Source: Bacillota bacterium (lineage in GTDB: Bacteria > Bacillota > Thermincolia > Thermincolales > UBA2595). Taken from it: a DNA stretch of 33,715 bases. The stretch is taken from contig JAJZQD010000020.1 of the NCBI GenBank assembly GCA_021847735.1, positions 1-33,715 on the forward strand, read 5' to 3'. This document shows positions 1,374-33,613 of the stretch, in pieces; within the stretch, counting starts at the first letter, position 1; every line of letters starts with the position of its first letter. The notes under the pieces are model-generated. The model saw nothing but the letters and a program-made list of their open reading frames with translations. It was not told where the DNA came from and searched no databases. Position numbers and translations under genes: made by a program.

Positions 1374-2171
1374 ATGGGTTACCTTGCTCTCGGACTTATT
1401 GTCATAATTGCTATGTTTGTCCTGATCATTCTGGCTTCAAGTTTTAAGGTGGTTAACGAGTGGGAACGCTTGGCTATTCTTAACCTGGGGAAATACAGCG
1501 GGCTTAAGGGGCCTGGGCTTATCATACTTATTCCGATTGTCCAGTCCATAGCCACCAGAATTGATATGAGGGTCCTTGCCAGTAGATTTCAGTCGGAAAC
1601 AACTTTGACGAAGGACGGGGTTGCCGTTACCGTTCAGGCCGTATTGTTCTGGAAGGTTATTGACCCGGAAAAGGCTACACTTGAAGTCAGTAATTACCGC
1701 CAGGCTGTTGAACTTGCTGCCCAAACATCTTTACGGGATGTTATCGGCCGAATGAAGCTGGAGATGATTCTCTCCAATTTGGAAGAACTTGACCTGACTC
1801 TTAAAGAATCTATCGGCCGCAAAGTTTTGCAGTGGGGTGTTGAGGCCAAGACGGTAGAAATCAGGGATGTTTCCATACCGGTCGAATTACAGGAAGTAAT
1901 GTCCCGGTCCGCCCAGGCCGACAGGGAAAAACAAGCTCGTATCATATACGGGGAAGCCGAAATAGAGGCAGCTAAAAAGTTTGTAGAAGCATCGCAAATA
2001 TATGCATCAAACCCGTCTGCCATCCAGTTAAGGGCTATGTCCATTATGTATGAGGCTGTAAAAAGTGATCAAAACACCGTGATTATTACCCCGTCTAACG
2101 TGGCTGATGCCCTGAATCCAACAGTTTTGGCCACGGCTTGGGCCAACCCGGCAAATATAAAGAAGGAATAA
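1374..2171 (+). CDS. Slipin / stomatin-like SPFH domain membrane protein
   Basis: This is a 265-residue SPFH protein. A single hydrophobic anchor covers about residues 2-24, then the stomatin-type region begins with VVNEWERLAILNLGKY and continues through PIVQSIATRIDMRV to a C-terminal helical segment rich in Ala, Glu and Lys (AQADREKQARIIYGEAE). Slipins form membrane-bound oligomers that organise microdomains and often pair with an NfeD protein; no NfeD gene lies beside it here. ATG at 1374 is preferred over TTG at 1371 because AGGAGGG (1361-1367) then has normal spacing. A TATAAT at 1335-1340 is the likely -10. A G/C-run hairpin terminates it. Confidence 0.92.
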   Translation: MGYLALGLIVIIAMFVLIILASSFKVVNEWERLAILNLGKYSGLKGPGLIILIPIVQSIATRIDMRVLASRFQSETTLTKDGVAVTVQAVLFWKVIDPEKATLEVSNYRQAVELAAQTSLRDVIGRMKLEMILSNLEELDLTLKESIGRKVLQWGVEAKTVEIRDVSIPVELQEVMSRSAQADREKQARIIYGEAEIEAAKKFVEASQIYASNPSAIQLRAMSIMYEAVKSDQNTVIITPSNVADALNPTVLATAWANPANIKKE

Positions 2172-2172
2172 G

Positions 2173-2200
2173 AAGGGGGGGGATACCCCCCTTTGCTCTT
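2173..2200 (+). terminator. Terminator of the slipin gene
   Basis: An A2G8 run (2173-2182) pairs with a C6T3 run (2186-2194) directly after the stop codon. Downstream is CTCTTTTC. Confidence 0.7.
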
Positions 2201-2207
2201 TTCACTG

Positions 2208-2236
2208 TTGGTATTTGTCCGAAAAGATATTATAAT
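2208..2236 (+). promoter_or_regulatory. Sigma-A-type promoter of mobA-fdhD-mobB
   Basis: TTGGTA (2208-2213) and a perfect TATAAT (2231-2236) are separated by 17 bases. The site lies just after the slipin terminator and about 60 bases before the mobA start, so it should drive the three-gene operon. Confidence 0.75.
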
Positions 2237-2296
2237 AGAATGAGCAGGTCAATACATAATCGAGTTCGGCAAGATACAGATGAAAAGGGGAGTCCT

Positions 2297-2905
2297 ATGT
2301 CTGGAGCGGCCGCTATTGTTTTGGCGGGGGGCAAAAGTACCCGGATGGGAAAAGATAAGGCCTTAATTGTGGTGCAAAAGGATAAGATGCTGGCAGGGGT
2401 AATCCGTTTATTATCCAAGGAGTTTTCCGAAATAATAATTTCCGCCAGTGACAACTTGTACGGGGAGTTGGGGCTAAAGACCGTGCCTGATATTTACCCG
2501 GGTCGCGGGCCATTAGGCGGCATTCACGCCGGACTACGGGCGTCAAGCTATGACGTAAATTTTGTGGTGGCCTGTGATATGCCCTTTATTAATACCAGAT
2601 TGGCTGCTTACATGGTTGATGCTGCCCCAGGGTACGACATTGTGGTCCCCAGGCTGGGGGATTATTACCAACCTCTGTTTGCGGTTTATACAAAGAATTG
2701 TTTGCCGGCGATAGAAAGGCAGTTAAACCAGGGCCGGAATAAAATAACCACATTTTATCCGGGAATGAAAACCAGGTTCGTGGAACCGGAGGAAATAGAA
2801 AAGTACGGTGACCCCAATGAGCTGTTTTTTAATGTAAACACGCCTGTTGATTTGGAAATGGCCAAGGGCATGGCCGGGAGGAAACTAGATGGATCCAAGG
2901 TTTAA
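2297..2905 (+). CDS. mobA: Molybdenum cofactor guanylyltransferase MobA
   Basis: MobA transfers GMP from GTP to molybdopterin to make Mo-guanine dinucleotide cofactor in the cytoplasm. The 202-residue product begins with the nucleotidyltransferase signature AAIVLAGGKSTRMGKDKAL and contains PDIYPGRGPLGGIHAGL and the metal-site region VVACDMPFI, all typical of MobA. The reading frame stays open upstream to 2138, but ATG 2297 fits the family start, has AGGGGAG just upstream and lies after a good promoter. Its end overlaps the fdhD start by 17 bases, so the two are translationally coupled. With fdhD and mobB it suggests maturation of a bis-MGD enzyme such as formate dehydrogenase. Confidence 0.92.
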   Translation: MSGAAAIVLAGGKSTRMGKDKALIVVQKDKMLAGVIRLLSKEFSEIIISASDNLYGELGLKTVPDIYPGRGPLGGIHAGLRASSYDVNFVVACDMPFINTRLAAYMVDAAPGYDIVVPRLGDYYQPLFAVYTKNCLPAIERQLNQGRNKITTFYPGMKTRFVEPEEIEKYGDPNELFFNVNTPVDLEMAKGMAGRKLDGSKV

Positions 2906-3671
2906 GTTGGTCCGAGCTTATAGAATCAAAGAAGGAGCCAGCGCGACTATTGAAGACCCTGTAACCTGTGAAACTCCCATAACCATTTATTATAACGACC
3001 AGGAACTGGTTACCCTGCTTTGTACTTTGGAGTATCTCGATGAACTGGCAGTAGGTTTTTTGCGTTCAGAGGGGTTCATTAGAGAAAAAGAAGATATCCG
3101 GGATATCAAAATTGACCCTGTAGCAGGGAGCGTAAGAGTTTCGGCCGGGGGCCCGGCTGCCGTCGCCCAGAACACTTTCCTTAAACGTTACCTTACCACC
3201 GGGTGTGGTAAAGGGACAAGCTTTTATCACCTTTCTGATGCGGTTTGTAAAAGGGTGGAAACAGGTTTTCAAATCAATTCCTCTCAGGTACTGAACCTGA
3301 TGATACAAGCCCAGCGCAGGTCAGAATTATTTAAGATGACCGGCGGCGTGCATAGTTCGGCAGTCTGCACAAAAGACAAAATACTCTTTTTCAGGGAAGA
3401 TATTGGCCGGCATAACACTGTTGACAAGTTAAGCGGCAGGTGTTTGTTTGATGGCGTGGACACCAAAGACAAGATACTTCTCACTACAGGGCGGATATCC
3501 TCGGAAATCCTTATCAAATCGGCTAAGCTTGGCATACCTTTGATTGCCTCCCGCTCCGCCCCAACAGACCTGGCTATCCGACATGCTGCCGAACTTGGGG
3601 TAACAATAGCGGCTTTTGTGCGCAACCAAAAAATGAATGTTTATACTTACCCGGAACGGGTAATTCCTTAG
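2889..3671 (+). CDS. fdhD: Formate dehydrogenase accessory sulfurtransferase FdhD
   Basis: FdhD passes sulfur from a cysteine desulfurase to the molybdenum cofactor of formate dehydrogenase. The 260-residue protein has family features: an N-terminal EDPVTCETPITIYYN strand region, LDELAVGFLRSEG, the sulfur-transfer loop TTGCGKG, the TGGVHSSAVC motif and FREDIGRHNTVDKL. The loop has a single cysteine (TGCGKG) rather than the CxxC seen in the E. coli protein. GGGAGG lies 8 bases before ATG 2889. It sits between mobA and mobB in one operon. The target formate dehydrogenase is not in this window. Confidence 0.95.
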   Translation: MDPRFKLVRAYRIKEGASATIEDPVTCETPITIYYNDQELVTLLCTLEYLDELAVGFLRSEGFIREKEDIRDIKIDPVAGSVRVSAGGPAAVAQNTFLKRYLTTGCGKGTSFYHLSDAVCKRVETGFQINSSQVLNLMIQAQRRSELFKMTGGVHSSAVCTKDKILFFREDIGRHNTVDKLSGRCLFDGVDTKDKILLTTGRISSEILIKSAKLGIPLIASRSAPTDLAIRHAAELGVTIAAFVRNQKMNVYTYPERVIP

Positions 3672-3679
3672 GGGGAAAA

Positions 3680-4180
3680 ATGATGATTCCGGTTATATCA
3701 GTGGTTGGCTACGCCAATTCCGGTAAAACAACTCTGTTGGTAAAACTTATTAAGGAGTTAAAAAAGAGGGGTTTTAAAGTAGCGACTATAAAACACCACC
3801 ATAATAACTTCGAGATAGATATCCCGGGAAAGGATACATGGAGACATGCCCAGGCTGGCGCTGATACGGTGGTCCTGGCGTCCCCGGGGAAAGTGGCAGT
3901 CATTGAACGGACCCAACGTGAAATGACTCTCGATGAAATTGCCGGCAAGATTACCGGGGTTGATCTGATTATTACTGAGGGTTTTAAAAAAGAACATAAG
4001 CCAAAAATTGAGGTTTTTCGGTCGGAAACGCACGATAAACTAATTACTCCTCCGGCGGAACTCCTGGCAGTGGTCAGTGATATTGATTTTGCTGATAGTC
4101 CCACTTTTGCCCTGGATGATGCTGTGGGCCTGGTTGATTTTTTATCAGGCAAGCTGTCCCTTCCCGCACCAAACTTGTAA
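3680..4180 (+). CDS. mobB: Molybdopterin-guanine dinucleotide biosynthesis protein MobB
   Basis: MobB is a GTP-binding P-loop protein that helps MobA in cofactor biosynthesis. The 166-residue product starts with PVISVVGYANSGKTTLLVKL, containing the Walker A motif, followed by KVATIKHHHNNFEID and the D/T-rich region DTWRHAQAGADTVVLASP, both typical of MobB. DLIITEGFKKEHKPKIEVFR is the conserved C-terminal family signature. It starts 8 bases after fdhD with GGGGG upstream (3671-3675) and closes the Mo-cofactor operon. No clear terminator follows. Confidence 0.94.
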   Translation: MMIPVISVVGYANSGKTTLLVKLIKELKKRGFKVATIKHHHNNFEIDIPGKDTWRHAQAGADTVVLASPGKVAVIERTQREMTLDEIAGKITGVDLIITEGFKKEHKPKIEVFRSETHDKLITPPAELLAVVSDIDFADSPTFALDDAVGLVDFLSGKLSLPAPNL

Positions 4181-5222: not shown

Positions 5223-5224
5223 TG

Positions 5225-5263
5225 AAAGGGATACTCCGTTACTACGGAGCTACACCCTTTTTT
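5225..5263 (+). terminator. Terminator of the Crp/Fnr gene
   Basis: AAAGGG (5225-5230) pairs with CCCTTT (5255-5260), and CTCCGT (5234-5239) pairs with ACGGAG (5244-5249) around a TACT loop. The run extends to TTTTTT at 5258-5263. Confidence 0.75.
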
Positions 5264-5292
5264 CATGTCCTCCCTCGGGGTGGGTTGAGTCT

Positions 5293-5348
5293 GTTACACT
5301 GGTGTGTGACCTATGTCATTGATTTCAATTAAATTTTTATGATATTAT
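5293..5348 (+). promoter_or_regulatory. Promoter of the moxR-VWA pair with Crp/Fnr-like palindromes
   Basis: TTGATT (5319-5324) and TATTAT (5343-5348) are spaced by 18 bases. Overlapping the -35 edge is TGAC-ctat-GTCA (5307-5318), which read as TGTGA-N6-TCATT matches the Crp-type TGTGA-N6-TCACA consensus at 8 of 10 positions. Immediately upstream is another palindrome, GTTACAC-tggt-GTGTGAC (5293-5310, one mismatch). The adjacent Crp/Fnr gene is an obvious candidate binder; that link is inference. Confidence 0.5.
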
Positions 5349-5406
5349 TGGTGTAGCCAAATTATTTACATTTATTCAAATACGATAAAATCCGGGAGGT
5401 ACAAAT

Positions 5407-6324
5407 ATGGAATTGACTGTTGAACAGCTAAAATCAGCCTTTGAACAACAGGGTTATATTGCGGATCAGGAAACCTTTGTAACGGTATATCTAGCCTTAA
5501 AACTGCAAAAACCCATGTTGGTTGAGGGGCCCCCCGGTGTAGGAAAAACCGAAATTGCCAAGGTCTTGGCAAGTGTATTCGACACAGAACTGATCAGATT
5601 GCAGTGTTATGAAGGACTTGACGAAAACAAGGCTTTATATGAATGGAACTACCAGAAGCAGTTAATTAAAATACAGCTTAGTCAGGTCAACCAAGCAAAC
5701 CAGTGCCAGATAGTGGAGGACAGCCTTTTCTCCGAGGAATACTTGTTGGAAAGGCCCTTACTGAAAGCCATCCGGGCAGAAAAAAGGCCGGTTTTGTTAA
5801 TTGACGAAATTGACAAGGTAGACCAGGAGTTCGAGGCTTTCTTGTTTGAGGTGCTTTCCGATTTTCAGGTCTCTATCCCGGAATGGGGTACCATTACCTC
5901 AAAACAGATACCCATTGTTGTATTGACTAGCAATGCCGAACGGGAGATTTCCGACGGTCTAAAGCGTCGGTGTGTTTACATTTACCTGGACTACCCGAGC
6001 GCCGACAAGGAGCTGCGCATTATCACTGCCAAGATACCGGACATCGGCCAGCGGCTTTCAATGGAAGTGGCCAGGGCCGTCAATTATATCAGGGAACGGT
6101 TGGAACTGAGGAAGAAGCCGTCTATTGCCGAAACCCTTGACTGGGCAAGGGCCTTGATTTCCCTTGATGCCGACAGGCTAACCCCTGAAGTAGTAAATCT
6201 TACTTTGAACCTAATATTTAAGAATAAAGACGATATTGACACTTTCCGCCAGAACCTGGGGCCGCAAGAACTTGTAGATTACCTGAATAACAACGGTACA
6301 GCCAGAAACGCCGGAAGGGGGTAA
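5407..6324 (+). CDS. MoxR-family AAA+ ATPase
   Basis: MoxR ATPases act as chaperone-like ATPases that assemble or activate metalloenzymes and complexes together with a VWA partner. The 305-residue protein has Walker A GPPGVGKT (41-48), Walker B LLIDEID (130-136; D133 and E134), a sensor-1 region VVLTSNAERE and an arginine segment GLKRRCVYIYLDYP. The C-terminal lid is helical (ETLDWARALISL). It matches the CoxD-like branch of MoxR. GGGAGG lies 9 bases before ATG 5407. Only 5 bases separate it from the VWA gene, the standard MoxR-VWA pair. The client complex cannot be told from this window. Confidence 0.93.
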   Translation: MELTVEQLKSAFEQQGYIADQETFVTVYLALKLQKPMLVEGPPGVGKTEIAKVLASVFDTELIRLQCYEGLDENKALYEWNYQKQLIKIQLSQVNQANQCQIVEDSLFSEEYLLERPLLKAIRAEKRPVLLIDEIDKVDQEFEAFLFEVLSDFQVSIPEWGTITSKQIPIVVLTSNAEREISDGLKRRCVYIYLDYPSADKELRIITAKIPDIGQRLSMEVARAVNYIRERLELRKKPSIAETLDWARALISLDADRLTPEVVNLTLNLIFKNKDDIDTFRQNLGPQELVDYLNNNGTARNAGRG

Positions 6325-14740: not shown

Positions 14741-14834
14741 ACAAAAACATAATAGGCAAACCTCGCGAAAGCGAGGGGCGCAAAGCCGTGGGTCTAAGGT
14801 GAGTTCACTATGATTGCCAGGTTGCCGCTGATAT
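14741..14834 (+). promoter_or_regulatory. Cyclic di-GMP-I (GEMM-I) riboswitch aptamer
   Basis: The conserved GEMM-I features appear in order. ATAGGCAAACC is followed by the hairpin CCTCGC-GAAA-GCGAGG with a GNRA loop (14761-14776), then GGCGCAAAGCC and GTGGGTCTAAGG, then a short GTGA/TCAC stem (14800-14809), then TGATTGCCAGGTTGCCG. GGCAA at the 5' side and TTGCC at the 3' side close the aptamer. The family is known to bind c-di-GMP. It lies upstream of an EAL-HDOD gene with an intrinsic terminator between, so it probably controls transcription termination. Confidence 0.92.
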
Positions 14835-14868: not shown

Positions 14869-14930
14869 TTGACCAATTAATGCCCATCATGAAGTTCTAA
14901 TTGGGGGCTGACATCATAGGAGGTGCCGGA

Positions 14931-16148
14931 ATGGAAGTTTTTGTAGCCCGCCAGCCAATTTTTAATAGGCAGCAAAAAGTCTACGGATATGAACTGTTGT
15001 ACCGGCTGGGGATGGATAACTTTTACAATAATCCAGCAGGGGACGGAGATAGGGCCACATCGGAGGTCATTGCCAACAGCTTTCTTTTAATTGGTTTGGA
15101 TGCCCTGACGGGTGGCAAAAGAGCCTTTATTAATTTTACCGAGAATTTGCTGAAGAATGAGGTTGCCACGATCTTGCCGAAAGAAGTTGTGGCCATAGAA
15201 ATCCTTGAAAACATAGAGGTCGATGACAAGGTCGTCAATGCTTGCATAAAGTTGAAAAAGCTAGGGTATCCGCTCGTTTTAGATGACTTCGTTCTGGATG
15301 AGAGGTTTAAACCTCTGGTTGAATTGGCTGATATCATAAAAATCGATTTTATGGAATGTGACATCAGAGAAAAGATGGATGTTATTCGAAGATTCGGCTC
15401 CGCGGGAGTACAGCTTTTGGCTGAGAAAGTGGAAACTACGGAAATGTTTAAAGAGGCCTTTGAAATGGGGTACTCATATTTTCAGGGTTACTTTTTCAGC
15501 AGGCCTATCATTCTTACAGGGCAGGACATCCCCGGTTATAAGATTAACTACCTGCAGGCCCTGGAGGAAGTTAACCGGCCCGAAATGGACTTTGACAGGC
15601 TTGAGGGAATTATTAAACGGGATGTGTCTCTATCCTATAAACTTTTAAAATACATTAACTCAGCCGCTTTTGGCTTTAGAAGTAAGATAGATTCGATTAA
15701 ACATGCACTGGTTCTTCTTGGTATTCAGGAAATCAAAAATTGGGTGAGCCTGATTATATTGAGAGGCATGGGGGAAGATAAACCAGACGAGATAACGACC
15801 AGCTCAATTCTGAGGGCCAAGTTCAGCGAACTGATTGCCCCCAAAGTGGGCCTCCAGGAACGGTCTTCCGATCTTTTTTTGATGGGCATGTTTTCCATGA
15901 TAGATGCCTTGATTAGCCGGCCCATGACCGACATCCTTGACGAACTGCCCATTGCCGAAGACATCAAGAGGGCTTTGTTGGGGAAGGAATGCCGTTACCG
16001 GGATCTTTACGAGTTGATTTTGGCTTACGAAAAAGGTAATTGGGAGGAATTCTCGGCCTTGGCTACCAGAATTAAGCTGGACGAAGCTGAGGTTCCCAAA
16101 ATTTATCTCCAGTCACTGGCCTGGGCAAATCAGGTTATGCAGTTGTAG
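14931..16148 (+). CDS. EAL-HDOD signalling protein
   Basis: This 405-residue protein has an N-terminal EAL-type domain (about 1-200) and a C-terminal HDOD domain (about 205-400), the YuxH-like architecture. EAL-type motifs are YGYELLYR, FINFTEN, VAIEILENI, LVLDDF, IIKIDF, LAEKVET and YFQGYFFSRP. The loop normally reading DFGTGYSSL is replaced by DDFVLDERF, so phosphodiesterase activity is doubtful. The HDOD part has YKLLKYINSAAFGFRSKIDSIKHALVLLG. ATG 14931 is chosen because AGGAGG (14918-14923) lies 7 bases upstream. Control by the c-di-GMP riboswitch suggests it senses or feeds back on the second messenger. Its output partner is unknown. Confidence 0.9.
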   Translation: MEVFVARQPIFNRQQKVYGYELLYRLGMDNFYNNPAGDGDRATSEVIANSFLLIGLDALTGGKRAFINFTENLLKNEVATILPKEVVAIEILENIEVDDKVVNACIKLKKLGYPLVLDDFVLDERFKPLVELADIIKIDFMECDIREKMDVIRRFGSAGVQLLAEKVETTEMFKEAFEMGYSYFQGYFFSRPIILTGQDIPGYKINYLQALEEVNRPEMDFDRLEGIIKRDVSLSYKLLKYINSAAFGFRSKIDSIKHALVLLGIQEIKNWVSLIILRGMGEDKPDEITTSSILRAKFSELIAPKVGLQERSSDLFLMGMFSMIDALISRPMTDILDELPIAEDIKRALLGKECRYRDLYELILAYEKGNWEEFSALATRIKLDEAEVPKIYLQSLAWANQVMQL

Positions 16149-16367: not shown

Positions 16368-16772
16368 ATGCCAGGTGATGGTACAGTGAGGAATGTCTCG
16401 TTAGAAAAAAGAAAGTTTTTACGATTAGAGATTAATAAGAAAGCTACCTGCAAGTTTCTGGGGGGTGACGGGACGCGGTTTAACCTTTTGGCAATGTTGG
16501 AGGTAGATACTCAAATCGTTAATTTAAGTGTTAGCGGGGCCTGTGTTGCATATGAGTGTAGTATTAGCGCCGGCGCCGTTCAGAAAAACGGAATAGTCCT
16601 ACTGGAAATTCCTTTTGAAGAGGAACCTTTCAGTGTTAACGGAAGAGTGGCCTGGTGCGAAAAAACTGAGACGGGAATTAAAGCCGGGCTGCAATTTGAA
16701 GTCGTAGATGAAGAGGATAGACAAAAATTATTAAGGTTCCTAAATGGCGAACTGAGGTTTGCAAAGGCTTAA
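16368..16772 (+). CDS. PilZ domain protein, probable c-di-GMP receptor
   Basis: This 134-residue protein carries the PilZ c-di-GMP binding signature: RxxxR as RKFLR (R15 and R19) and the second motif (D/N)xSxxG as NLSVSG. The rest fits the beta-barrel, including FSVNGRVAWCEKTETGIKAGLQF. It may act as a single-domain receptor that changes a partner protein when c-di-GMP rises. Its location right after the riboswitch-controlled EAL-HDOD gene supports a shared signalling role. The start ATG has AGGAAAGG upstream. A perfect hairpin follows the gene. Confidence 0.9.
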   Translation: MPGDGTVRNVSLEKRKFLRLEINKKATCKFLGGDGTRFNLLAMLEVDTQIVNLSVSGACVAYECSISAGAVQKNGIVLLEIPFEEEPFSVNGRVAWCEKTETGIKAGLQFEVVDEEDRQKLLRFLNGELRFAKA

Positions 16773-26015: not shown

Positions 26016-26045
26016 AAGCCCCATTCCAAGAGGGGCTTTTTTTTT
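26016..26045 (+). terminator. Terminator, probably of pyk
   Basis: AAGCCCC (26016-26022) pairs with GGGGCTT (26032-26038), followed by a nine-T run to 26045. The repeat unit lies between it and the pyk stop codon. Confidence 0.85.
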
Positions 26046-26789
26046 GCCCAAATCAAAGAAGCTGCCTTTTTTCCCAGTAACTATTTCCAACAAATTCTGC
26101 GCACCCCCCTAGCCAAGAAAACCGTGTCAATAAAGAAATATTTTGTGCAGCTATAGGCAGGGGGATTCTAGGCGGCACTGAATTTGAATAAAATTGATGA
26201 CGAAACATGCCCAGGTTTGTAAAAAAAGGAAAAAATGTTTTTGTAATAGACTGCCACTTTCAACATTGTTTTTAAAACATTGTTGATAGAATGGATAATG
26301 AGAGCCACTATTATGTTTTATTGGAAGAGGGCCGTTCTCTTGCTAACAACTTTTCCGGATAGTCCTACGACAATCAAATAACTTTCTTAAGGAATTTGTC
26401 GAATAGCAAAGATTTTTCCTTTAGTAGAAACTGTAAGTTGGTTCAAATTTTATAAAAGGGTCAATAAAATATATCTGAACAAATATCGACATTACAAAGG
26501 TTGACTTTGTGAAATTAATGTCAATTAACAACAAAAAATTGTGCCTTTTGGCAGAAGAAAAATTTATTGTTATTTAATTATTTGTTTTTAGGTGACTCAT
26601 ATTTGACGATTTCGACAACGGTAATCATTATAATTAAAATCGAGATACAAGAAAATCTGGTTCGGAAGCAGCAACCGAAAGATAAATATTCGGAAACCTG
26701 TGAAATAAGTCACATAATAAAGGACTTTTATTTTAAAGATGAGTGAAGGCGGGCCCGTACAGAAACAAGTTAGCGACAAGGAGGGCCAA
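26046..26789. promoter_or_regulatory. AT-rich upstream region of the cytochrome cluster
   Basis: These 744 bases contain no convincing gene. They hold a 27-base near-perfect palindrome (26260-26286), two exact Spo0A-box matches (TGTCGAA 26397-26403 and TTCGACA 26611-26617) and an inverted repeat GACATTA-CAAAG / CTTTG…TAATGTC (26488-26522). A TATAAT at 26629-26634 has a TTGACG at 26603-26608, but 20 bases apart, which suggests an activator-dependent promoter or a different -35. The AAGGAGGG ribosome site (26778-26785) closes the region. The many sites suggest complex regulation; the regulators are not proven. Confidence 0.55.
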
Positions 26790-27989
26790 ATGAGTTACAA
26801 TAACAATCCAATTAAAGGCAAGAAAAAACTGCTGACTACTTTTTTGATGTCTTTGTGGTTAGTTCCATTAACAATTTACGGAGGGATAAAGGTTGTCGAT
26901 TACCCTGGTCGATGTGCGCTATGCCATTCGATGAAGCCCGAGTATTATACATGGCAGGCGTCAACCCACGGTAAGGCTGAGGTGAGCTGCGTGTCGTGCC
27001 ATTCTCCCCAGGGAATCAGTAATATAATCAAAGACAAACTAAGGAGCTTTAAGCAGATATATTACACGGTGACAAATAATTACACATCTCCTATTAGAAT
27101 AATTTATACCGTTCAGGACGGCGCATGTGAACGGTGCCATGATATGAACAAACGGCTAATATCTCCTTCCAAAGCCCCGGATTTGAAAGTACCCCACAAA
27201 GTACATAAAGAAGCAGGCATTTTATGTTCTAAGTGCCATGCCGGGACAGCCCACGGTAATATTCCAGACCGCAAAGTTAGCTATGCGGCCGATTACAAGA
27301 AATGGAATGAGCTGTTGGGCAAATCTATGATGAGCGATCCCCGGTATGTCAGGCCTCAAATGGAGACTTGCATGCGCTGCCACACTTTGCGCAAGGCTAC
27401 CCTGAAGTGTAAGAGCTGCCATCCCAGCGGTAAACTGCCTGCTACCCACAAAAACAGTGATTTCCGGAATAGAAGCCATGGGATGATGGCCAAACAGGGG
27501 CTGGAAGAATGTAATTCGTGTCATGGTTCTATGTCTGACAAGCCGGTTGAGGTTTTTAAAGAACCGGAGGTATTTAAACAGTTTCTCAACGAAGAAGTGC
27601 CAAAAAAACAACCTTCTCCTTTAATACCTTATGCGAGGGGCAATAGTTTCTGCCGGAATTGCCACGCCAAACGCCCACCAAGCCACATCGTGCCTGGCTA
27701 TAAACAGTCCCATGGTGAATCTGCCAGCAAAGACAAGACCCGTTGTGCCGTATGTCATGATAATAATGCGGTATCGGGGACAACAGGAGCCAAGCCGGTC
27801 AGTGCGTATGGCGAAACAGTGACTCTCGTGGGCTGCAGTTCCTGCCACCCAAGCAGTCACTCTGATTCTGTCCAGTGGCAGAAGGGATACCACCCCTATC
27901 CTATTCCAACCCCCCCGAGATTAACCAGGTCGTGCTACTCATGCCACGATGAAACGAAGTGTGGTAAGTGTCACGACGTGTTAAAATAG
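26790..27989 (+). CDS. 12-haem c-type cytochrome, NapC/NirT-like, membrane anchored
   Basis: This 399-residue protein has one N-terminal membrane helix (about 13-33) followed directly by CALCHSMKPEYYTW (first haem Cys at C42) and CVSCHSPQG (C67), like NapC/NirT quinol dehydrogenases. Twelve CXXCH motifs are present, the last at C391 near the C-terminus. The probable role is to oxidise membrane quinol and pass electrons outward. ATG 26790 is chosen for AAGGAGGG just upstream; an in-frame ATG at 26739 has only a distant weak site. The NapC-like start extended by about ten further haems is unlike the usual 4-haem form. It heads a cluster of electron-transfer genes. Confidence 0.9.
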   Translation: MSYNNNPIKGKKKLLTTFLMSLWLVPLTIYGGIKVVDYPGRCALCHSMKPEYYTWQASTHGKAEVSCVSCHSPQGISNIIKDKLRSFKQIYYTVTNNYTSPIRIIYTVQDGACERCHDMNKRLISPSKAPDLKVPHKVHKEAGILCSKCHAGTAHGNIPDRKVSYAADYKKWNELLGKSMMSDPRYVRPQMETCMRCHTLRKATLKCKSCHPSGKLPATHKNSDFRNRSHGMMAKQGLEECNSCHGSMSDKPVEVFKEPEVFKQFLNEEVPKKQPSPLIPYARGNSFCRNCHAKRPPSHIVPGYKQSHGESASKDKTRCAVCHDNNAVSGTTGAKPVSAYGETVTLVGCSSCHPSSHSDSVQWQKGYHPYPIPTPPRLTRSCYSCHDETKCGKCHDVLK

Positions 27990-28026
27990 ATAATTTTTAA
28001 AATAAGCAGACAGGAGGACGAGCAAA

Positions 28027-28707
28027 ATGTCGGTTACCAATACGGAAGTTAAACACGTTCGAAACGCAGTTTCTTCAGGCGGAAGGAAAAGAGACTATTT
28101 TAAGCTTTGGGAAGCAAGCCTATTAATTCTTTTGACAGTGGTAATAAGCATAAGCTCATGGTATACGGTGGGTAAGATGTTCTTTTGGAGTGGACTTGAT
28201 CAGAAAAGGGTTAAACAACAGTTGGAGTTCCTGTCCAAAAAGGTTGAAGCCGAACCCAAAAACCTGGAATACCGGGTTGGCCTTGGATATACCTACTTCT
28301 TAAACGGAGACAATGAAAATGCCACAAAACAACTCAACCAGGTTCTGGAAATCGATAAGAATTATTACGACGGCCACTACAACCTGGGACTTGTTTTAAA
28401 AGATGAGGGAAAACTTGACGATGCTTTGGAACACTTCCAAAAATGTGTAGAGATATCTCCCAAGGACTACAAGGGATTTCTCCAAAAGGGCGTTACCTAT
28501 AGGAAGATGAAGATGTACAAAGAGGCCGTTGAATCTTTAAATCGTGCTAATCTTCTTATGCCAGGGAGGGCGGATACCATTTATGAAATAGGTATGGTTG
28601 CCGAAGACAAGGGAGACAAAACCATTGCTGCCGGGATATACAAAGAAGCTTTACGGTATGACCCTATGTTTAAAGATGCCTTGGAGGCTCTGAAACGAGT
28701 ACAGTGA
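28027..28707 (+). CDS. Membrane-anchored TPR protein
   Basis: In this 226-residue protein a charged N-terminus is followed by one membrane helix (about 30-50, LLILLTVVISISSWYTV), then about four TPR repeats: YRVGLGYTYFLNGDNENATKQL, GHYNLGLVLKDEGKLDDALEHF, GFLQKGVTYRKMKMYKEAVESL and YEIGMVAEDKGDKTIAAGIY (each shown within its repeat). The TPR part probably faces outside and may hold partner proteins or help assemble the cytochromes. The AGGAGGACGAG ribosome site supports ATG 28027. It lies 37 bases after the 12-haem gene, so it is very likely in the same operon. No enzymatic motif is seen. Confidence 0.88.
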   Translation: MSVTNTEVKHVRNAVSSGGRKRDYFKLWEASLLILLTVVISISSWYTVGKMFFWSGLDQKRVKQQLEFLSKKVEAEPKNLEYRVGLGYTYFLNGDNENATKQLNQVLEIDKNYYDGHYNLGLVLKDEGKLDDALEHFQKCVEISPKDYKGFLQKGVTYRKMKMYKEAVESLNRANLLMPGRADTIYEIGMVAEDKGDKTIAAGIYKEALRYDPMFKDALEALKRVQ

Positions 28708-28778
28708 AAACAAGATAAGTCCATCAAACTGCAAAGTTGACGAGCGGACCTTAAAAACAGGACTGAAACGGAGTTGAT

Positions 28779-29783
28779 TTGACAATGGAAGAAAGGGTTA
28801 ACCCGAAATGGACATTTAGAAAGAAAAATGTTTACAATCTCATGGCAGTGATATTTCTGGCCATCTCAACAGCCTTCGGGTATATGTTTTATACTGACAC
28901 AGACGTAACATCAATACCAAATAAGGTTAATCCCGCTGGTCCCCCTACCTTCAGCAGAATGCTGTACGGGGGATTCGGTGAAGAAGCCCTGGTCAAAGGA
29001 ATGGATGTTAGTGTAATTGGTGATAACATTTATGTTACAGACGCAAAAAGCAAGAGGGTGCAGGTCTTTAACCCGGACGGGACTCTGCGGCTTAGGTTTG
29101 GCACGGAGGGAAATAAACCGGGTGAATTCAATTTTCCATACGGTATTGCAGGTGACAGCAAGAATAACGTATATGTAGTGGATTTATACAATGGATGTAT
29201 TTCTGTCCATGACAGCAACGGAAAATTTCTCAGGTACTTTGCCGAGAAGGACCCCAAGGAAATGGTTATTGACAGTCCGGGTGGGCTTAGAATAGTCGAT
29301 GATAAGTTATATGTGACTGAAATTAAAAGAGGAAAAATCTATGTGTTCGACCTCACCGGTAAAAAGCTGCTGGAAGTCGGAAAACCCGGGATAATGCCCG
29401 GGGAATTACGTTCCCCCAATGCAGTAACTGCCGACGCTGAAGGCAATATCTATGTGACTGATACAGGTAACCAGCGAATCCAGATTTATGATAAAACAGG
29501 GAAGTTCATAAGAAGCATAAACGGCAGCAAGGATGGGAAGGGGACGTCCTCCCTGGTTAACCCCCGCGGCATCGCTCTTGATTCACGGGGGAACATCTTA
29601 GTGGTAAGCAACCTGACACATTTTGTTTTCGCCTTTGACAAGGAGGGGAACGAGATATACACCTTCGGCGGCAACGGTGGGGCCACTTACCAATTTAGCC
29701 TGCCAAACGGCCTTTGTATTGATAAAAATGGCAGTATATATGTGACAGACACCGCTAACCAGCGGGTGGCAATTTATGATTAA
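28779..29783 (+). CDS. Membrane-anchored NHL-repeat beta-propeller protein
   Basis: This 334-residue protein has a membrane helix near the N-terminus (about 18-40) and then about six NHL-type repeats (about 65-334). They show the typical pattern of FPYGIAGDSKNNVYVVD, SPNAVTADAEGNIYVTDTGN, NPRGIALDSRGNILVVS and LPNGLCIDKNGSIYVTDTAN followed by QRVAIYD or QRIQIYD. A six-bladed propeller outside the membrane is expected. Such proteins often accompany multihaem cytochromes as docking or scaffold partners. TTG 28779 is 6 bases after CGGAG; ATG 28785 is an alternative start. No cysteine haem motif is present. Confidence 0.88.
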   Translation: MTMEERVNPKWTFRKKNVYNLMAVIFLAISTAFGYMFYTDTDVTSIPNKVNPAGPPTFSRMLYGGFGEEALVKGMDVSVIGDNIYVTDAKSKRVQVFNPDGTLRLRFGTEGNKPGEFNFPYGIAGDSKNNVYVVDLYNGCISVHDSNGKFLRYFAEKDPKEMVIDSPGGLRIVDDKLYVTEIKRGKIYVFDLTGKKLLEVGKPGIMPGELRSPNAVTADAEGNIYVTDTGNQRIQIYDKTGKFIRSINGSKDGKGTSSLVNPRGIALDSRGNILVVSNLTHFVFAFDKEGNEIYTFGGNGGATYQFSLPNGLCIDKNGSIYVTDTANQRVAIYD

Positions 29784-29895
29784 AGGTTAGGGCTGACCTC
29801 CCGACCGAAGTTTATGAAGAAAGGAGGGTAGGGGTAAAGTGTAGACCCGGTTGGGTGGGTATAAACCTAGACATTACTAATAGGAGGGGAGATTC

Positions 29896-31557
29896 ATGCG
29901 TAAATTATTCGTAGTATTGTTCACCCTGATTTTCCTAGTGGGCATTACTACAGCCGCTTATGCCGCCAGTGGACAACTGAATGGTGCGCCGCAAACCTTG
30001 GGCGCGAGCGACTACAACCCCTATCCGGGCTATGAATTTGTTCCCGGTTATGGCGACTCAATGGACAACGATCTGGAATATTACAATGCCAACAACTCTG
30101 GTGAAGGCGTTAGTACAAACAACGGAACCACTCTTGGTACTGTAATAAAGTCTGACAACATGAAAGACACTGCTGCCAGTGCCGTATACTCGGTACAAAG
30201 AACCCATGGCGAATACAAGAACAACACCAACTCCTGCGCCAGCTGCCACCAGACTCACACCGCAGCAGCAGCAGGCCTGTTGATTAAAGACAGTGTATTC
30301 ACCACTTGTTCCGCCTGTCATGACGGAACCCTCGGGTTCTACAACGTATTTACCCCGTCATCTGCCGGTACCTTCGGCGGAACCAAAGCCGGTAATGCTT
30401 CCGTACACATGGCTGACGGAACCTTTGAGCAGAAGTATGCTCCCGGTGGTAACCTAACCCTGACCGGTTCAGACAATGGCGGCTGGACTGAAATGTTTGA
30501 CTGTGCTTCCTGCCATGCTCCGCACGGTTCTTACAGTGACCGTCTGCTCCACTACAACCCCAACGACATGGCCAACACCTCTATTGCCAACAAAGGTCAG
30601 AAACTTGTCGACAATACTGTTGTTGATGTCCTTCCCGATCCTGCCACAGCCACTGTTGATTTAGTTGTGTACAGGACCACAGCCGGCACTGCAGGGATTG
30701 ACGCAGCTTTAGAGACCGGCACTACCCCGGTTATTGTTGTCATGAAGCTGACATCGACTGAAGACAGAACTGTTTATCCTCCTGTAACCACCAAATCATG
30801 GGTAAGAGATACAACCCCATGGCTCTATGGCTACAAATTTGACGAGTATCATTTTGGACGCCAGTATAACAGCGTATTTTACAACGATACACTCCCGGTT
30901 GACCAGGCTGTTTACTACAACAAGCAAATGACCAAGATAGTTATCAACTACGGTCAAGCCTACGCTAAGACTGGTGGCACTGCCGCCCAAGCTAACATTG
31001 GCGATATCGCCAACGCCAACAGGGCTGACGTCGCCCGCGTATATGTAACGAAGCTTGGCAATACCAAATATCCCATCACCCCGGTTGCGGGCGCTCCTGT
31101 TGGTTACGCCGTATTTAAGGTTAACCCGAATGTTTACGACGAAACCGGAATGGGCGTACCCATTGGCAAGTACTGCGGCGCATGCCATACCGACTACAGG
31201 GCCGCTTCCGGTGGCAATACCGGTATGTACACAGTGGCATACCGCCATACCACCGATAATGATAACTACACCTGTCTGAAGTGCCACTTTGCACACGGTA
31301 CTGACGTAACTGTTATGGCTGATGCCAAGGATCAGACTGTTGCATCCCTGACACTTACCGTTGGTGAAGAAATGGCCAAGGCTTACATGCTGGATAAGAA
31401 CCCGTCCTCCGCACTGAAGAGATACACCAACATGGCTGTATGCTGGAAGTGCCACACCTCTTCTAAGTCTGAAGAGCTGAGAAACAACAAATACTATTGG
31501 GACAACTGGAAACCCAATAATGCTGGCCTTGTTCCTGAAGGACCTACTAACTGGTAA
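29896..31557 (+). CDS. Secreted 6-haem c-type cytochrome
   Basis: This 553-residue protein has a clear signal peptide (MRKLFVVLFTLIFLVGITTAAYA, cleavage near AYA-AS). Six CXXCH motifs have their first Cys at 114, 138, 203, 427, 460 and 516; several sit in the doubled-CXXCH pattern (CASCHQTHT, CSACHDGT, CASCHAPHG). About 220 residues (208-426) without haem motifs lie between the third and fourth, rich in Tyr, Thr and Val, and may form a separate beta-type domain. Codon use favours AAC over AAT (about 31 to 11 by my hand count), suggesting high expression. GAGGGGAG lies before ATG. The likely role is electron transfer at the cell surface or wall. Confidence 0.88.
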   Translation: MRKLFVVLFTLIFLVGITTAAYAASGQLNGAPQTLGASDYNPYPGYEFVPGYGDSMDNDLEYYNANNSGEGVSTNNGTTLGTVIKSDNMKDTAASAVYSVQRTHGEYKNNTNSCASCHQTHTAAAAGLLIKDSVFTTCSACHDGTLGFYNVFTPSSAGTFGGTKAGNASVHMADGTFEQKYAPGGNLTLTGSDNGGWTEMFDCASCHAPHGSYSDRLLHYNPNDMANTSIANKGQKLVDNTVVDVLPDPATATVDLVVYRTTAGTAGIDAALETGTTPVIVVMKLTSTEDRTVYPPVTTKSWVRDTTPWLYGYKFDEYHFGRQYNSVFYNDTLPVDQAVYYNKQMTKIVINYGQAYAKTGGTAAQANIGDIANANRADVARVYVTKLGNTKYPITPVAGAPVGYAVFKVNPNVYDETGMGVPIGKYCGACHTDYRAASGGNTGMYTVAYRHTTDNDNYTCLKCHFAHGTDVTVMADAKDQTVASLTLTVGEEMAKAYMLDKNPSSALKRYTNMAVCWKCHTSSKSEELRNNKYYWDNWKPNNAGLVPEGPTNW

Positions 31558-31567
31558 GTAAAAAAAT

Positions 31568-31594
31568 AGCTAACAAAATCGCCTTTTGTTAGCT
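31568..31594 (+). terminator. Hairpin after the 6-haem gene
   Basis: AGCTAACAAAA (31568-31578) pairs perfectly with TTTTGTTAGCT (31584-31594). No T tract follows, so it may stabilise the 3' end of the message rather than terminate. Confidence 0.55.
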
Positions 31595-31617
31595 CATGAA
31601 AAGTAATACCTAATTTG

Positions 31618-31666
31618 GCTAAGGTATTATGCCTGGCATAATACCTTAGCTCCTTCTATATTTTTT
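31618..31666 (+). terminator. Perfect 16-bp hairpin terminator
   Basis: Bases 31618-31633 pair perfectly with 31635-31650 (arms start GCTAAGGTATT and end AATACCTTAGC), followed by a T-rich run TCCTTCTATATTTTTTTC. AATACCTA (31606-31613) could instead pair with TAAGGTATT (31620-31628), giving an alternative structure. Confidence 0.8.
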
Positions 31667-31732
31667 TCTTATCTTAATTCTAATCCAAAAATTCGGCTCC
31701 TGTCAACATTTCGTCCAAAAAGGGGGATCTAT

Positions 31733-33613
31733 ATGAAGCTGCGGAAACATTTCGCCCTGCGGCATTGGATATTGGTTATTTCAGTGATATTGATAACCCT
31801 GTTGGCCGGATCCCCGGTAATCAAGTACTGCATTGCGTTGGCAGCGGGTACAACCCCTTCCATTTCCAGTCCGGCTCAGGGACAAGCTTTAAATACATCA
31901 TCTGTTCTGATAACCGGTATAGCTGATGTGAATTCTTCGGTTGATGTTTACATAGATAATGTTTTGTCCGGGACAACTGTGGCCGCCGGTGACGGCAGTT
32001 GGTCCTTTTCCACAGGTACCCTGGCGGAAGCGGCTCATAATGTTTACGCCACTACCCTCGGTTCATCCGGGGAAACTCTAACTTCTACAACTGTTAATTT
32101 TCAAATTGACTTGACTCCGCCCGTGGTAAGTATTACTAAGCCGGTAGACAACTCCTATGTTAACCTTCCTGAGATCCAAGGGGTAACCGAGCCGGAAGCA
32201 GTGGTAACAATCTCAGTTTACGGTAAGCAGAACAAGGTTACCGCCGACCTGTTTGGAAATTGGTCTTATTTTGATCCGGGCCTTCCGGAAGGAACTAACA
32301 GTGTCACGGTAACGGCAGTTGACAAAGCGGGGAATGTGGGAAACCCTTCCACTCGCACCTTTACGTTGGATATGACACGTCCGGTAGTTCTGCCCGATTT
32401 ATTTCCGGGTGACGATATGACCAATGTCCCTGTTAGTATCTCAGCCTATGTTTTTATTCGGGAAAAATCACCTATTGACCCGACCGCCTTTCAGTCAGCA
32501 ATTCGCCTTACGGAATTTGTGAGCGATACGGTTTACAGGACGGTGAACGGGACAGTTTATAACTCCGTATATACAAACGTTTACGGTGAACAAATTTACA
32601 GGCTGAAATTTAAGCCTGAAACACTGTTAAGAATCAGTGCCAGGTACAGGGTTGAGGTTAATCCCCTGTTATCTGACCCCGCCGGCAATCTGGTAATGCC
32701 AAGGAACTGGACTTTTACGACGGTTGGCGATGTATACGGCGAGAACCCCCATGGCAACTATATAAATAATGTCAATACATGTGTTAACTGCCATAAGCCG
32801 CATACGGCAACAGATTCGAAGCTTGTCCGGCCGCCCGGCTCTCCGTTAAAGTCTATGGATAACTACTGCAATGCCTGCCATGATGGGACATCTGCTCCTT
32901 TTGTCAGCAACTGGTCAATGCCTTATTTACACAATGTTCAGGTCAGCATTGACAGTGTTATAGGCAGCGGTTCCTGTACCGCCTGTCACAATCCACACTT
33001 AACATGGGTGCCTGAAAATCCTAATCTCCTCCAGGACTACTACTTATATCTCCACAACGACCCAACCAACCCTTACCTGCCCAACAGTAGTGAACAGGAA
33101 TTATGTGAGAGCTGCCATGAAGGAACGATAAAAGACGACCCCAGAGTGAATTACATTAGGTATCAATACAAAAAAAGCAATATCACGACCGGAGTGCCGG
33201 AAGACTATAGCCTGTGTCTTCGCTGCCATGACGGGGGCAAAGCAGTTAATATAGCAGTCTATTATAGTGGGCCGTCCGGACATTTCCTTATTCCGCTGGA
33301 CGGCAGTCCCATCAATGGTTACATGCCTTGCGCCGATTGCCACGAAACCCATGGCTCGGAGAACATTAAGTTGCTCAAAAATAAACTGGGACACAACAAA
33401 GTGCAGGCTTTTAAAGCAGGGAGTTTATGGGACACTGATACAGAACGGCGTTTTTGCACCGGTTGTCATAATGGACTAACCGAACTATACGGAATTACTG
33501 TGAAATTCGATGCCACCATCCCTGGACATGAAACCGGAAACCCTGATCAATGCAGCAGGTGCCACGGGGGGTCAACGGTTGCCGCGGCCCATGCACCCGT
33601 TGTTCCGAAGTAG
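31733..33613 (+). CDS. Secreted 8-haem cytochrome with Ig-like and Big_5-type domains
   Basis: This is a 626-residue protein. An N-terminal hydrophobic segment (about 12-38) acts as signal or anchor. Two Ig-like domains follow (about 43-125 and 127-214, with SPAQGQALNTSSVLITGIAD and TVTAVDKAGNVGNPSTRTFTL), then an SbsA-like/Big_5-type domain (about 215-330, from MTRPVVLPDLFPGDD). The C-terminal part (350-611) has eight CXXCH motifs: CVNCH at C350, CNACHDG, CTACHNPH, CESCHEG, CLRCHDG, CADCHETHG, CTGCHNG and CSRCH at C607. The architecture suggests a wall-attached spacer carrying a haem wire outward. AAGGGGG lies before ATG. A strong terminator separates it from the 6-haem gene. Confidence 0.88.
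   Translation: MKLRKHFALRHWILVISVILITLLAGSPVIKYCIALAAGTTPSISSPAQGQALNTSSVLITGIADVNSSVDVYIDNVLSGTTVAAGDGSWSFSTGTLAEAAHNVYATTLGSSGETLTSTTVNFQIDLTPPVVSITKPVDNSYVNLPEIQGVTEPEAVVTISVYGKQNKVTADLFGNWSYFDPGLPEGTNSVTVTAVDKAGNVGNPSTRTFTLDMTRPVVLPDLFPGDDMTNVPVSISAYVFIREKSPIDPTAFQSAIRLTEFVSDTVYRTVNGTVYNSVYTNVYGEQIYRLKFKPETLLRISARYRVEVNPLLSDPAGNLVMPRNWTFTTVGDVYGENPHGNYINNVNTCVNCHKPHTATDSKLVRPPGSPLKSMDNYCNACHDGTSAPFVSNWSMPYLHNVQVSIDSVIGSGSCTACHNPHLTWVPENPNLLQDYYLYLHNDPTNPYLPNSSEQELCESCHEGTIKDDPRVNYIRYQYKKSNITTGVPEDYSLCLRCHDGGKAVNIAVYYSGPSGHFLIPLDGSPINGYMPCADCHETHGSENIKLLKNKLGHNKVQAFKAGSLWDTDTERRFCTGCHNGLTELYGITVKFDATIPGHETGNPDQCSRCHGGSTVAAAHAPVVPK

Follow-up and report, generated by a model that had tools for sequence, protein, structure and literature searches.

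A putative trans-wall electron-transfer gene set in a Thermincolales genome, related to the ImdcA-CwcA cluster of Thermincola

How electrons cross a peptidoglycan wall of 20-80 nm is an open question. The pathway published for Thermincola comprises ImdcA, PdcA, CwcA and OcwA. For CwcA, a wall protein with six haems, a model was built on OmcS at 18% identity (PMC7911101), and the wire that it would form is a model for which structural proof is lacking. OmcS, the hexahaem filament protein of Geobacter sulfurreducens (PDB 6EF8/6NEF), has 12 histidine haem ligands, one of which is supplied by the neighbouring molecule (PMC6584659). Here, a set of five genes, named A to E (positions 26790-33613), is described from a 33,715-nucleotide stretch of a Bacillota bacterium of the order Thermincolales (GenBank assembly GCA_021847735.1, 62% complete, 2.18 Mb). 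This stretch, referred to below as the window, is the entire contig JAJZQD010000020.1 (C50). The set rather likely represents a trans-wall extracellular electron-transfer module, divergent from but paralogous to the ImdcA-CwcA cluster, in which the product of D would form an OmcS/CwcA-like wire. Gram-positive cytochrome conduits are a kind of system that is already known, and what is new here is the divergent paralogue, its constant TPR-NHL-hexahaem core, the beta insert of D and the spread in soil Bacillaceae.

An earlier note, made from the sequence alone, had described five genes in one direction with 26 haem motifs, coding for a NapC-like 12-haem protein, a TPR protein, an NHL protein, a six-haem cytochrome and an eight-haem cytochrome with immunoglobulin (Ig)-like domains. 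This description holds, as there are five collinear open reading frames (ORFs) on the forward strand (Table 1) with 12, 0, 0, 6 and 8 CXXCH motifs, 26 in total, and Pfam finds NapC/NirT, TPR, NHL, Paired_CXXCH and Ig-like domains in the window proteins. Scanned with the pattern TGY-N6-TGY-CAY, the whole window contains 30 motifs, against 1.7 expected for random sequence of the same composition and a maximum of 8 in shuffles. The membrane helices and signal peptides of that description correspond to one transmembrane (TM)-like segment close to the N-terminus of each of A, B and C, and to signal-peptide-like N-termini in D and E. For A, the start at 26790 is preferred over the longer ORF start at 26739, because aaggaggg immediately precedes its ATG and the relatives begin at the same point, while C has an alternative TTG start at 28779. 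Since the contig ends at 33715, 102 bases past E, the set may be truncated.

The likeness to the published cluster, which runs from ImdcA (TherJR_1117/Tfer_0070) to CwcA (TherJR_1122/Tfer_0075), lies in a membrane NapC-type multihaem protein, a TPR protein, an NHL protein and a secreted hexahaem cytochrome encoded in the same order, with the TPR-NHL-hexahaem triad downstream of the NapC-type gene in the window as well. The differences are that the window set has neither the 10-haem ImdcA gene nor the 17-haem genes, that it adds the eight-haem Ig cytochrome, and that its hexahaem protein, at 553 amino acids (aa) against about 370 aa, carries a beta insert. As no 10-haem gene stands upstream of A in the window to provide the ImdcA with which the cluster begins, the set is not the ImdcA-CwcA cluster in the strict sense. 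In a metagenome-assembled genome (MAG) of Thermincola ferriacetica, locus L115 shows a 10-haem, 12-haem, 17-haem, TPR, NHL and six-haem series whose number of genes fits Tfer_0070 to 0075, and its 10-haem protein begins with MGIRD, the same as reported for ImdcA (PMC7911101). The source genome also has an ImdcA-to-CwcA counterpart, split between contigs C101 and C93 (loci L057 and L052), so that genes A to E of the window constitute a second, divergent copy. The possibility that D is CwcA itself was rejected on the evidence of these loci, the CwcA counterpart being a 372 aa protein at L052:3483-4601.

The nearest genomes are MAGs of the Thermincola family, five of which (G001, G004, G005, G008 and G009) have the A-B-C-D-E order, which is also found in G006, split over two contigs. 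Taking one genome per species, 54 named loci were recovered from Thermincola (Thermincolaceae), Desulfosporosinus and Bacillaceae such as Neobacillus, Mesobacillus and Evansella. In 50 of them A to D form an uninterrupted same-strand run; 36 have an eight-haem E after D, and 40 have a NapC-type gene with 10 haems in front of A. The triad, moreover, recurs at several loci in the source genome and its relatives. Within Neobacillus, a D relative is present in 46 of 62 genomes, 32 of these matching the window type over the full length, and three of the others, when opened, revealed the same operon, its hexahaem genes being one to three in number and compact (370-420 aa). No paper describing multihaem cytochromes of Neobacillus was found in a literature of limited coverage, and this does not prove novelty. 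The tree of D places two Desulfosporosinus sequences within the Bacillaceae, next to Mesobacillus subterraneus (97/96 and 100/99), a position that points to horizontal transfer between classes. At four Desulfosporosinus loci (L064, L067, L076 and L096), another NHL gene and a second, compact multihaem gene (six to seven haems) come after D, and two of the D proteins there cluster with Mesobacillus. The conserved neighbourhood whose absence the earlier note had set as a refutation of its proposal is thus present; the note had missed the published cluster, the status of the set as a second copy and the probable kinship of D to CwcA and OmcS.

This kinship shows in the haem ligands. D has six collinear CXXCH motifs, and among its 53 relatives exactly six histidines outside the motifs are invariant (precursor positions 104, 121, 171, 210, 451 and 467), one per haem, all 12 presumed ligands (six motif and six non-motif) being invariant across the 53 rows of the alignment. 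Aligned with OmcS, His121, His171, His210 and His467 of D pair with His16, His110, His147 and His335, respectively. D therefore shares with OmcS the six motifs, the twelve ligands and the conserved position of His16, which we take to be the ligand that OmcS donates in trans to the neighbouring subunit; by analogy, His121 is predicted to bind a haem in the D subunit that follows. D differs in being distant, in a beta domain, placed between haems 3 and 4, that OmcS lacks in the alignment, in its Gram-positive host, and in a polymer that is putative. At the profile level, CwcA-type paralogues without D match OmcS with E=1.9e-19, and with three D proteins added the match reaches E=2e-20 and spans all six haems, the real OmcS scoring above 1000 of 1000 shuffles in which motifs and histidines had been preserved. 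Furthermore, hhalign aligned D with the short (CwcA) type with E=2.8e-32.

Several observations weigh against this assignment or against the wire that it would imply. Profiles of D alone give low scores against OmcS (19.7 and 28.6 bits), although above all 1000 shuffles, and that of the compact Neobacillus form does not exceed its shuffles; MtrA attains comparable E-values through scattered motif-level matches; and the hhalign match between D and its short relatives covers haems 1-3 only. AlphaFold left the haem core of mature D unmodelled (53 rows; mean pLDDT, the predicted local distance difference test score, of 55, with values above 90 mainly in the beta domain, mature residues ~210-290), and Foldseek found no significant fold match in the PDB. 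Single-sequence PDB searches with D and E were discarded, as they returned motif-level matches only. In addition, what cytochrome filaments do physiologically is a matter of dispute (PMC11077965). Because of the weak D-only scores, the compact form falling within the shuffles and the similar behaviour of MtrA, D is likely, rather than proved, to be a CwcA/OmcS family member, the link to OmcS being strong in the case of the short paralogues and weaker in that of D's own subfamily.

At the membrane side, A matches the NrfH family with a profile E-value of 6.2e-16. It shares with NrfH, NapC and NirT the N-terminal TM anchor, the four-haem N-terminal region and a first haem of the CXXCHxM type, whose methionine (Met65) is invariant in all aligned rows, which supports a quinol dehydrogenase N-terminus of the NapC/NrfH type. 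It differs from them in its eight further haems and in having no NrfA or NapAB partner nearby. Ten of its non-motif histidines are conserved at 95% or more, and its AlphaFold model (21 rows) has a mean pLDDT of 55. B matches Pfam TPR families, with weak similarity to the TPR region of CcmH/CycH and a TM-like window at residue 30, and C matches the Pfam NHL family with E=8e-31. In other maturation systems, apocytochromes are handled by TPR domains. Genes for NHL proteins lie next to those of extracellular cytochromes in Gallionella (PMC10734462) and in Desulfovibrio ferrophilus. The Uet system of Gallionella and Tenderiales (tetrahaem UetA, NHL proteins UetHI) resembles the present set in this association, whereas it is a Gram-negative system with a porin, a tetrahaem cytochrome and a peptidyl-prolyl isomerase, and with no TPR protein named in the part of its description at hand (PMC10734462). 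The A-E set contains no porin-like gene of the kind that characterises the Mtr and Pcc conduits, its two non-haem members being B and C.

In E, eight histidines outside the motifs are conserved at 95% or more, one distal histidine for each of its eight haems, so that all of them can be bis-histidine coordinated and none needs to be open for catalysis. An OmcZ-like identity of E was dropped, since a profile search gave no OmcZ match. In the five relatives with the complete order, E is followed by a cytochrome of 1200-1280 aa with 10-13 haems, and the one tested contains Ig-like domains; an M23 peptidase gene lies between the two in G001 and G005, which fits passage through the wall. The second hairpin between D and E, followed by a T-run, is strong and terminator-like, and a single operon including E is therefore not certain. 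With it, more D than E would be made, as one would expect if D is a structural subunit. Upstream, a stem that was read directly from the sequence, and that the hairpin scan (loops of up to 8) did not list, likely terminates the pyruvate kinase gene and separates it from the set. An ANTAR response regulator gene precedes A in two relatives, while the window has none. No riboswitch was found upstream of A, the sole Rfam match in the window being a c-di-GMP-I riboswitch (14745-14829, 81.5 bits) 12 kb away, just upstream of an EAL-HDOD gene (14901-16148) and near a PilZ gene (16368-16772). In HGW-Firmicutes-14 (L061), tandem c-di-GMP-I-GGC riboswitches (5224-5301 and 5380-5457) lie about 1.5 kb before A, and none was found in five other loci searched.

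A role in extracellular electron transfer is well supported by the anatomy of the set and its conservation, as far as sequence can inform. A would oxidise menaquinol at its NrfH-like membrane end and pass the electrons along its 12 haems. D would be exported via Sec and matured by System II (ResB/CcsA); genes for ResB and CcsA adjoin the paralogue clusters, and a menaquinone-pathway gene is present. D subunits may then stack head to tail, the His121 of each binding a haem in the following one, into a wire across the peptidoglycan, with the Ig-tethered E as a putative outer relay or docking cytochrome. The membrane-anchored B and C may hold or deliver D during haem attachment or assembly. For the path from quinol to the outside that had been put forward earlier, the NrfH-type N-terminus, the bis-histidine cytochromes outside the membrane and the conserved neighbourhood speak in favour, and the path is what we infer from them; likewise, the TPR and NHL proteins proposed as partners are constantly associated with the hexahaem cytochrome, and their part in assembly or docking is presumptive.

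Extracellular transfer does not by itself require a wire. D and E could remain monomers in the wall or at the surface and pass electrons on by diffusing or touching, as has been proposed for OmhA of Carboxydothermus, which is loosely bound and may shuttle (PMC7829351). The weak similarity of D alone to OmcS and an AlphaFold model that offers no evidence of a polymer agree with this reading, but the histidine aligned with OmcS His16 is as invariant as the five other distal ones, compact D copies occur in tandem in Neobacillus, and CwcA expressed in E. coli was insoluble, which its authors read as consistent with polymers (PMC7911101); on this evidence we hold wire-free transfer to be unlikely.

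It is quite improbable that the same conduit works inward, taking up electrons from minerals, metals or partner cells, even if direction is not fixed by sequence. The usual direction of NrfH-type quinol dehydrogenases is outward. Furthermore, Thermincola respires electrodes and Fe(III) (PMC7911101). In favour of uptake is the company of NHL proteins that the Uet electron-uptake cytochromes of Gallionella keep (PMC10734462). A reductase in which E or D is the catalytic subunit and the acceptor is soluble, such as nitrite or some other oxyanion, would account for the resemblance of A to NrfH and for a weak match of E to octahaem nitrite reductase (E=0.003), and OcwA of Thermincola does reduce nitrite (PMC7096707); nevertheless, the conserved distal histidine for each haem of D and E leaves no open catalytic iron and no NrfA family match came near the cut-off, which makes this a remote prospect.

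Beside the CwcA-type cluster of the source genome lies a 2411 aa ORF with 67 CXXCH motifs (L052:6957-14192, contig C93), among the largest counts; examples with 58 and 69 haems have been mentioned (PMC7096707). At another locus of this genome (L054, C16:1-20000), another NHL gene and an ORF of 2017 aa with 25 haems come after the triad, with one ResB/CcsA pair upstream and a pair of similar appearance downstream. Elsewhere in the window, genes at 2138-4180 resemble, by eye, MobA, FdhD and MobB (molybdenum cofactor use).

Table 1. Positions in the window of genes A to E and of associated features
Feature	Coordinates	Strand	Evidence
A: membrane-anchored 12-haem cytochrome, NapC/NrfH-type N-terminus with C-terminal multihaem extension	26790..27989	+	motifs, NrfH profile, TM segment, ribosome-binding site
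B: TPR protein, one N-terminal TM-like segment	28027..28707	+	Pfam TPR, position between A and C in relatives
C: NHL beta-propeller protein, one N-terminal TM-like segment	28785..29783	+	Pfam NHL, position before hexahaem gene
D: secreted hexahaem cytochrome, probable CwcA/OmcS type, beta insert; candidate filament subunit	29896..31557	+	motifs, conserved His, profiles
D residue His121 (CASCHQTH), aligned with OmcS His16	30256..30258	+	alignment, 53/53 invariant
Hairpins between D and E, the second (31617-31651) with T-run, terminator-like	31568..31669	+	hairpin scan, sequence
E: secreted octahaem cytochrome, N-terminal Ig-like domains	31733..33613	+	motifs, Big_13 and other Ig-like domains
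Stem aagcccc/ggggctt with T-run, likely pyruvate kinase terminator	26020..26048	+	read from sequence

A broader reading may tentatively be added, namely that of a mobile, dedicated trans-wall wire system of Gram-positive bacteria in which the membrane TPR and NHL proteins would be the assembly platform of an OmcS-like polymer, and which would work in ordinary facultative soil Bacillaceae as well as in specialist metal reducers. The A-E set would be a second, compact version of the Thermincola arrangement with constant TPR and NHL partners, and it occurs in cultured soil Bacillaceae that could be used for growth and genetic tests. With its recurrent TPR-NHL-hexahaem triad it suggests assembly factors whose role deletions could probe, and the invariant histidine of D offers a one-residue test of polymerisation.

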